The position numbers were made by a program, and so were the translations under genes. A stretch of DNA of 64,000 nt from Treponema sp. (GTDB lineage Bacteria > Spirochaetota > Spirochaetia > Treponematales > Treponemataceae). Below, one piece after another: positions 58,152-60,578 of this stretch; within the stretch, counting starts at the first letter, position 1, and each line of letters begins with the position of its first letter. The notes under the pieces were generated by a model. The model ran no database searches. It was given only the letters and a program-made list of their open reading frames with translations, and was not told the origin of the DNA. The stretch spans positions 1 through 64,000 of the forward strand of contig JAIKYZ010000037.1 in NCBI GenBank assembly GCA_024682655.1, in the 5' to 3' direction.

Positions 58152-59138
58152 ATGATAGAAAAAAGACCACTTGTTAAAGATTTATACACAGCAGATCCTT
58201 CTGCCCACGTTTTTAACGGAAAAATTTATATTTATCCATCGCATGATGAAGATAAAGATGTAGAAAATAATGATAATGGTGATCAGTACAACATGAAAGA
58301 TTATCATGTTTACGAAATGAAAGACGTAGAAACCTACCCAAGAGATTGTGGATGCGTACTTAAACTTGAAGATGTAAAATGGGCCAGCAAACAGCTTTGG
58401 GCTCCTGATTGTGTTGAAAAGGATGGAAAATATTATTTTGTTTTCCCAGCCCGCGACAAAGAAGGTTTCTTCCGCATTGGAATTGCAATTGGCGACAAAC
58501 CAGAAGGACCTTTTAAGCCAGAAGATAATTACATTCAGGGATCTTATTCAATTGACCCATGTATGTTCCCAGACACAGACGGAAAATACTATCTTACTTT
58601 TGGCGGTATTTGGGGCGGCCAGCTTGACCAGTACAGAAATAATAAATGGTCAGAAGATAATAAAGAACCAAAAGGCCAGGAAGCAGCTTGTACACCAAAA
58701 ATTGCCTTAATGAAAGACAACATGACAGAACTTGCAGAAGAAGTTCGCGACCTTGTAATCCTTGATGAAAAGGGAAAACCATTAACAGGTGGAGATGAAG
58801 ACCGCCGTTATTTTGAAGACCCATGGCTTTTTAAGAAAGGTGATACTTATTACTTTACCTATTCAACAGGTACAAGTCACTTCCTTTGTTTTGCCACAAG
58901 TAAGAATGTTTACGGCCCATACACCTATGGCGGAAAAATCCTTACTCCAGTTTTAGGATGGACAACTCACCACTCAATCCTCGAATATCAGGGAAAATGG
59001 TACCTCTTCTACCACGACTGTGAACTTTCCAACGGCATAAACCAAAAACGAAACGTAAAATTCCGCGAACTAAAATTCGATGACCAGGGAAACATTATTG
59101 AAATGAACGGGCTTGATTGGGGAGACGTTAAAAATTAA
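58152..59138 (+). CDS. Glycoside hydrolase family 43 protein
   Basis: 328 aa; DPSAHVFNGKIYIYPSHDED, SIDPCMFPD, EDPWLFKKGDTYYFTYS, HHSILEYQGKWYLFYHD. Confidence 0.92.
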   Translation: MIEKRPLVKDLYTADPSAHVFNGKIYIYPSHDEDKDVENNDNGDQYNMKDYHVYEMKDVETYPRDCGCVLKLEDVKWASKQLWAPDCVEKDGKYYFVFPARDKEGFFRIGIAIGDKPEGPFKPEDNYIQGSYSIDPCMFPDTDGKYYLTFGGIWGGQLDQYRNNKWSEDNKEPKGQEAACTPKIALMKDNMTELAEEVRDLVILDEKGKPLTGGDEDRRYFEDPWLFKKGDTYYFTYSTGTSHFLCFATSKNVYGPYTYGGKILTPVLGWTTHHSILEYQGKWYLFYHDCELSNGINQKRNVKFRELKFDDQGNIIEMNGLDWGDVKN

Positions 59139-59340
59139 TGCGTTAGCATTAATTTAGTCTCAACCAGAAAAGCCCAGGGGCGAGATTCATCGAGCCTTGA
59201 TTGGGGAGACGTTAAAAATTAATGCGTTAGCATTAATTTAGTCTCACCCACAAAATAACCAGGGGCGAGATTCATCGAGGCCTTGATTGGGGAGACGTTA
59301 AAAATTAATGCGTTAGCATTATTTTAGTCTCATCCAGAAA
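59112..59340. repeat. About 84-86 bp tandem repeat (3 units) containing the 3' end/stop of the GH43 gene and a hairpin
   Basis: CTTGATTGGGGAGACGTTAAAAATTAATGCGTTAGCATTA starts at 59112, 59196, 59282. Confidence 0.95.
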
Positions 59341-59343
59341 TGA

Positions 59344-59399
59344 TAAGGGGGAGATTTTAGTAATTAAGAATTAATTTTAATTACTAGAGTCTCCCCTTA
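59344..59399 (+). terminator. Terminator/stem-loop ending the GH43 repeat array
   Basis: TAAGGGGGAGA..AGTAATTA / TAATTACT..TCTCCCCTTA. Confidence 0.7.
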
Positions 59400-59452
59400 A
59401 AATTTTAAAATAATTATACAGGCAGGTTCTTTCTCTGTCCTTTAGAGAAAGA

Positions 59453-59659
59453 TTAATTTTTTAGAGCATCTAACAAATCTTCCAAGGGAACTTTCATTTT
59501 TTCGGCAACAGTTTCTGGTGCAAGATTAAATTCTCTTACCGCAGTCACAGCAGATTCCAAAGCTTTTACAGCCATTCCTTTTTCAATACCCTGCTCTATT
59601 CCCTGGTTTATACCTTCTTGTCTAGCTATTCGAATTAAATCTCTATCATGTATATTCAT
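59453..59659 (-). CDS. Stand-alone copy of the Rpn C-terminal domain (RpnS-like, 68 aa)
   Basis: MNIHDRDLIRIARQEGINQGIEQGIEKGMAVKALESAVTAVREFNLAPETVAEKMKVPLEDLLDALKN; preceded by AGGAG. Confidence 0.75.
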   Translation of the reverse strand: MNIHDRDLIRIARQEGINQGIEQGIEKGMAVKALESAVTAVREFNLAPETVAEKMKVPLEDLLDALKN

Positions 59660-59705
59660 CGCTGCGTACTCCTGGCGGAAACTTTCTCTGTCCTTTAGAG
59701 AAAGA

Positions 59706-59924
59706 TTAATTTTTTAGAGCTTCTAACAAATCTTCCAAGGGAACTTTCATTTTTTCGGCAACAGTTTCTGGTGCAAGATTAAATTCTCTTACCGCAGTCA
59801 CAGCAGATTCCAAAGCTTTTACAGCCATTCCTTTTTCGATTCCTTTTTCAATACCCTGCTCTATTCCCTGGTTTATACCTTCTTGTCTGGCTATTCGAAT
59901 TAAATCTCTATCATGTATATTCAT
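59706..59924 (-). CDS. Possible intragenic in-frame product of the Rpn gene (internal start, 72 aa)
   Basis: Internal ATG (59924) encoding MNIHDRDL with AGGAG 9 nt upstream (CAGGAGTACGCAGCGATG). Confidence 0.5.
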   Translation of the reverse strand: MNIHDRDLIRIARQEGINQGIEQGIEKGIEKGMAVKALESAVTAVREFNLAPETVAEKMKVPLEDLLEALKN

Positions 59925-60578
59925 CGCTGCGTACTCCTGGCGGAAACTTTCTCTGTCCTTTAGAGTCTCTACAAGGGTGGATAATCGGTTTGCAAAATCA
60001 TCTTCTCCGGGTCGATTCGTACTTATAAATTGCAAAATATTTCTGACCAGAGGATCTTTTTCCTCCCTGTAGGCACTTGCATTATAAATGACTTTGACAC
60101 AATTGTCATTTAATTTGACTTCTTCTGATTCCAAACAAGAACTTTTAAAGGTGTAACATGGTAGTCCAATGGATTTTTTATTTTCGGAAGCTTTGAAGGG
60201 ATCCTGGGTGCAAATAAATAATATGTAGGAATCTTTTAATTCAGTGTAGTCCTGACCTTTCATGAGGCTGTCCATATCTATCATGGACTGGTAATAGCGG
60301 CTTCTTTTTCCAAGAGCTGACTGCTGGTAGGACTGCATTTCTACATCAATGATTTTATCCTGATCTTTTAAGTAAACATCCAGACGAATTCCTTTGGTTG
60401 AATAAAAGGGGGCAATTGATTTTTCCAGTTCTGGATACTCAATGTTTTTAATTTTGATATGAAGAAGCCTCTCTACAAATTCCCTGCAGATTTCCTTATC
60501 GCGCAGTACAGTCTGGAAAACAAAATTATCAGCAAAAGTCAGCTGATCTACGGGTTTAAAGTAATTTGATAAACTCAT
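59706..60578 (-). CDS. Rpn family recombination-promoting nuclease/putative transposase (PD-(D/E)XK)
   Basis: 290 aa; LTFADNFVFQTVLRDKEICREFVERLL, GIRLDVYLKDQDKIIDVEMQ catalytic core, C-terminal G-rich heptads. Confidence 0.92.
   Translation of the reverse strand: MSLSNYFKPVDQLTFADNFVFQTVLRDKEICREFVERLLHIKIKNIEYPELEKSIAPFYSTKGIRLDVYLKDQDKIIDVEMQSYQQSALGKRSRYYQSMIDMDSLMKGQDYTELKDSYILFICTQDPFKASENKKSIGLPCYTFKSSCLESEEVKLNDNCVKVIYNASAYREEKDPLVRNILQFISTNRPGEDDFANRLSTLVETLKDRESFRQEYAAMNIHDRDLIRIARQEGINQGIEQGIEKGIEKGMAVKALESAVTAVREFNLAPETVAEKMKVPLEDLLEALKN

Follow-up and report, generated by a model that had tools for sequence, protein, structure and literature searches.

A Treponema rpn gene followed by a recent, free-standing duplicate of its predicted antitoxin frame, one repeat out of register

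Does a free-standing copy of an antitoxin frame, lying directly behind the toxin gene from which it derives, serve that gene as a second antitoxin? The question is raised by a Treponema locus within a 64,000-nucleotide stretch of DNA, the whole of which we call the window, where the 3′ end of an rpn gene is tandemly repeated directly downstream over about 250 bp, a repeat length far above chance expectation. The products of rpn genes are a nuclease toxin, RpnL, and a C-terminal antitoxin, RpnS, that is made from an internal start (Zhong et al. 2023, PMC10327210). In E. coli, a separate rpnS also occurs directly downstream, as ypaA after rpnE and as a second rpnCS after rpnC, and the YpaA protein is reported to be made (PMC10327210). 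Specificity of RpnS is set by the number of 4-residue repeats in its dimerizing helix; in E. coli, a single added repeat leaves RpnCS unable to counteract RpnC, and the reverse combination fails as well (PMC10327210). A sequence-only reading of the window had proposed that the antitoxin-like product has become a separate downstream gene. The architecture is real but not new, as the rpnE-ypaA and rpnC cases are published, and the window locus adds a spirochete case to that class.

The rpnL-like gene (59706-60578, minus strand) encodes a 290-amino-acid protein with a PD-(D/E)XK nuclease domain and a C-terminal repeat helix and is preceded by its own SD sequence (AAGGAG, 60594-60589, minus strand). 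The protein matched the profiles TIGR01784 (80.6 bits; cutoff, 52.1) and PF12784 (51.2; cutoff, 27.4), which bears out its earlier assignment to the Rpn family, and its active site is intact, with D67 and E80 invariant and Q82 nearly so across 29 sequences. It shares with Rpn family nucleases (TIGR01784, COG5464, and PF12784) the PD-(D/E)XK domain, the repeat-bearing C-terminal helix, and an internal SD/ATG, and at full length it carries no distinguishing feature. From family membership, RpnL and an internally started RpnS are predicted to constitute an Rpn toxin-antitoxin gene, with toxicity and neutralization to match, as part of an overall explanation that we consider probable. The closest named relatives of the host genome are rumen-type Treponema, e.g., UBA4267 and T. 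ruminis RU1, and no second assembly of the host species was present among the genomes searched. The sole other rpn gene found in the host genome (L002, G000:C89:29420-29845) is cut by a contig end, and rpn genes of relatives also often lie at contig ends, as expected of a multicopy sequence.

The duplication is marked by a 19-bp boundary repeat, CTCTAAAGGACAGAGAAAG (minus-strand sequence), that occurs three times on the minus strand: within the gene (59947-59965), after the first stop (59682-59700), and after the second stop (59429-59447). The downstream copy (59453-59659, minus strand) is an intact 68-amino-acid ORF, with an AGGAG (59673-59669) nine bases 5′ of its ATG (59659). Direct repeats D1 and D3 (199 nt at 91% ungapped and 127 nt at 99%) are both reconciled by a single 12-nt indel, and codon alignment of the two rpnS frames indicated that the copy is without one 12-nt unit, encoding one GIEK. 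Apart from this unit, the frames differ at two codons, GCC/GCT (Ala, silent) and GAA/GAT (Glu to Asp, near the end). The triple junction, the small ORF with SD and ATG, and its near identity to the nuclease C terminus had all been noted from the sequence and hold at every coordinate, and the description of the duplicate as a stand-alone C-terminal product is supported. Unequal recombination between the 19-bp direct repeats, one in the gene and one just after its stop, would most simply have given rise to this recent tandem copy. We conclude that the copy is a separate ORF derived from the upstream rpn gene with a near-identical tail, as is a free-standing downstream rpnS of the ypaA type, and that its repeat number is unequal to that of the upstream RpnL, by one GIEK fewer, as is not expected of a cognate antitoxin.

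The E. coli rpnE-ypaA and rpnC loci resemble the window locus in combining a full rpn gene that has an internal RpnS start, a predicted one in the window locus, with a free downstream copy that has its own SD and ATG and in having copies that vary in the number of 4-residue repeats. The number of GIEQ/GIEK units likewise varies between the window copies and relatives, in keeping with the variable repeat of RpnL/RpnS. The E. coli copies differ in the tail too, however, whereas the window tail is almost identical, as in a very recent copy, and a single repeat apart. Moreover, the K-12 annotation lists RpnE as inactive, and the window locus belongs to the phylum Spirochaetota.

Other repeated elements adjoin the duplication. 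The boundary repeat after the first stop forms a hairpin with its flanks (59682-59704), as does that after the second stop (59428-59452); on the plus strand both are terminator-like, with a T run, and face a convergent gene (58152-59138), the duplication having doubled them. Directly beyond the duplicated rpnS, a 72-nt repeat with a ATTAATGCGTTAGCATTAAT palindrome is present in three tandem copies at 84- to 86-nt spacing (59109-59350), and its core was found only there in the host genome and was absent from all 39 relatives searched. Two unrelated, adjoining tandem arrays suggest a locally unstable region.

The full-length gene itself appears to contain a second gene. An internal rpnS frame of 72 amino acids (59706-59924, minus strand) begins at an ATG (59924-59922) behind an AGGAG (59938-59934), and a predicted internal promoter, ATGACA-N17-TATAAT (60109-60081, minus strand), lies within the coding sequence and matches the consensus at 11 of 12 positions. 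For an analysis of synonymous constraint, 80 distinct Treponema rpn genes were gathered, 41 of them at <75% identity were used, and codons were shuffled within each gene. Constraint peaked at two sites, the NDNCVKVIYNASAY codons that hold the ATGACA-N17-TATAAT sequence and the codons around the internal SD/ATG. Both peaks are sharply localized and reached a z of about 11 (window median, 1.5; 41 genes), values that are upper bounds because codon shuffles leave shared ancestry in. A promoter match of at least 10 of 12 was found in 21 of 41 genes (7.8 expected; maximum of 11 in 50 shuffles), an internal SD of at least 5 bases in 25 of 37 (7.8 expected; maximum of 13 in shuffles), and an internal Met within four codons in 37 of 41. 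Single-site scans for promoters and terminators performed no better than shuffles (4 promoters versus 4.1 expected) and were rejected as evidence; the case for the promoter is built instead on codon constraint across species. Internal transcription start sites from dRNA-seq are cited for E. coli rpn genes (Zhong et al. 2023, PMC10327210). We conclude that the two peaks support a gene within a gene in Treponema rpn, from which RpnS would be translated, and that the in-frame internal start, earlier raised as a possibility, gains support from the conserved Met and the constraint on SD and promoter.

Both rpnS frames lie 3′ of the predicted internal promoter and keep an SD and an ATG, such that both are probably translated. 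A strong hairpin 3′ of both frames (59348-59396, minus strand; −20.5 kcal/mol; z, −5.4), with a weak T tract, is likely the transcript 3′ end, and the internal promoter together with full-length read-through would place both frames on one mRNA reaching to that hairpin. Two RNA candidates were rejected: Rfam matches at 59339-59404 (K10_TLS and mir-3202) fell below gathering scores and represented merely the plain hairpin, and a junction hairpin considered as an RNA switch 5′ of the small ORF had a stability no higher than that of shuffles (z, −0.67).

The free copy is predicted to fold into one long helix and two short ones (residues 5-44, 48-55, and 59-67), and the C-terminal part of RpnL is likewise predicted to form a long repeat-bearing helix followed by two short helices. 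By description, these helices resemble RpnAS (PDB 7TH0), a compact three-helix bundle with a long first helix. Structure and sequence searches of the PDB gave no significant match, and for this reason the RpnS fold is assigned from family membership and the predicted helices. Among PADLOC candidate families, C3a178, which spans 90 positions and is labeled "putative invertase," gave a weak match to the RpnS part at 59456-59659 (1.5e-5) and may represent RpnS-like tails.

Downstream copies are frequent in Treponema. A survey of relatives for duplicated Rpn C termini, of the kind proposed earlier, was positive: a downstream rpnS copy or remnant followed 8 of 31 unselected Treponema rpn loci, that is, loci found with the full-length protein only. 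Two extra tandem rpnS copies were present at loci of genomes G027 and G123, and decayed rpnS remnants were found at four loci (L104, L100, L140, and L158). Boundary remnants 3′ of every rpn stop were also considered and rejected, as most genes have none. At L100, L104, L116, L140, L156, and L158, the stop of the upstream gene and the start of the downstream rpnS overlap as ATGA. At these six loci the Rpn proteins terminate in GITPL, GGTTPL, or a variant of these, residues that come from translation, in a different frame, of the segment that carries the SD and ATG of the downstream rpnS.

Across 14 Treponema loci with about 16 downstream copies, no copy shared both its repeat number and its tail with the gene upstream of it, a count to be read knowing that exact or near-identical tandem copies collapse and are underrepresented in short-read assemblies. 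Copies with the same tail were off by exactly one repeat (window, −1; G123, +1; G188:C18, −1), and the remaining Treponema copies had a different tail, with the repeat number changed or not. To avoid such collapse, complete or chromosome-level E. coli genomes were examined. There, the repeat numbers of RpnE and YpaA were unequal in 13 of 13 pairs (one pair with a frameshifted YpaA), and the repeat regions of rpnC and its downstream copy differed in all 6 pairs. Two constructed matched haplotypes (0/0 and 1/1) occurred at ≥99% in zero of 5,399 genomes with a match, a result confined to those backgrounds. Salmonella matches to YpaA proved to be genes of another locus beside bioH, and a second small ORF downstream was not annotated. 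When the observed E. coli repeat numbers were paired at random, 45% of trials gave no match; the data therefore indicate that matching is not maintained, rather than that it is avoided. Active avoidance is statistically unsupported in E. coli; what is seen is a lack of matching only.

The mismatch bears directly on what the copy could do. The gene-within-gene layout would force the internal RpnS to match RpnL, as the two share codons, whereas the freed copy would be uncoupled from RpnL, with one 4-residue repeat fewer in its dimerizing helix. One repeat short and subject to the published matching rule, the copy is predicted to be a weak or null inhibitor of its own RpnL, although the rule was demonstrated in E. 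coli RpnC only and Treponema may tolerate one repeat. Given the observed anatomy, duplication, internal-signal constraint, and mismatch pattern, we infer that the copy would be translated, would not inhibit its neighbor, and is probably a recently duplicated, out-of-register antitoxin, displaced or drifting, rather than a backup. It might persist as a transient, functionless duplicate, block an RpnL with one repeat fewer, or enter mixed dimers.

Alternatively, tandem duplication in an unstable region could have left the copy as a transient by-product without function or selective effect, a reading that we consider possible but would not favor. Its very recent origin (2 codon changes and 12 nt), the decayed remnants at sibling loci, and the second tandem array next to it are consistent with neutrality. 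Free copies are nevertheless common in the genus, most keep an SD and an ATG, and in E. coli YpaA 104 silent versus 47 replacement codon differences in 28 allele pairs argue for purifying selection. On this codon evidence, some downstream copies do a job. Despite that selection, K-12 ypaA (L072, 7817-8002) is annotated as a pseudogene and elsewhere often as a partial "hypothetical protein."

Rather doubtful is the proposal that the window copy acts as an orphan antitoxin or cassette, blocking RpnLs of other registers (former, sibling, or incoming alleles) or donating C-terminal tails for swapping. In its favor, YpaA is constrained though out of register, some copies have a different tail yet near-identical DNA at the joint, and two loci of G188 (L075/L103 and L104) hold an identical pair of alternative RpnS tails in reversed order, which suggests tail exchange at the conserved joint. 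No RpnL identical to the copy in register and tail, however, was found in the host genome or in the relatives searched. Phage-borne orphans were also considered, and the phage collection searched contained no RpnS of the Treponema type. The orphan C-terminal modules of polymorphic toxin systems (Rhs and CDI) likewise lie behind the full gene as alternative C-terminal pieces in tandem. The rpnS copies resemble them, without membership, also in the conserved joint and the swapped orders in one genome; unlike those systems, rpn lacks secretion, and the variable piece is the antitoxin/oligomerization domain rather than the toxin. For Treponema and E. coli together, we tentatively raise the possibility that free downstream RpnS proteins form a class of non-cognate orphan antitoxins, displaced and swappable cassettes that do not share their neighbor's register, conferring immunity to other RpnL alleles or forming toxin-tuning mixed dimers.

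That the downstream RpnS is a backup, inhibiting the same RpnL and raising the antitoxin dose, is unlikely. The ORF is intact with its SD and the same tail, cotranscription is plausible, sibling loci show ATGA coupling, and E. coli is reported to make YpaA. Against this, the copy lacks one repeat and the sampled downstream copies are never in register. For the same reason, the earlier suggestion that one toxin has two slightly different inhibitors here is doubtful: in the published work specificity depends on how many repeats RpnS has, and in E. coli RpnC a mismatch of a single repeat did away with inhibition whichever partner was the longer. A copy that is decaying or acting on other alleles is more likely than a second inhibitor of the same toxin. 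Least credible by far is an assembly artifact joining two strain alleles in tandem, for although the host genome is in 151 contigs, many rpn copies lie at contig ends, and the copies differ as alleles might, the junction is an exact tandem one via the 19-bp direct repeat with unique flanks on either side, fixed differences separate the two copies, and the like arrangement in E. coli and in the complete genome of T. ruminis RU1 (locus L156) is no product of assembly. In the host genome itself, the duplication is read from the assembly.

Constraint on the internal promoter and SD, as comparative sequence evidence, extends the gene-within-gene model to spirochetes. Rpn systems solve the matching of toxin and antitoxin by using the same codons for both proteins, and a freed rpnS breaks that coupling. 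The window pair, with RpnS proteins one repeat and one conservative residue apart, offers a clean test case. Freed copies occur often but do not share their neighbor's register, and this holds for the published E. coli cases too, which raises the question of what selects for them, if not blocking of the neighbor.
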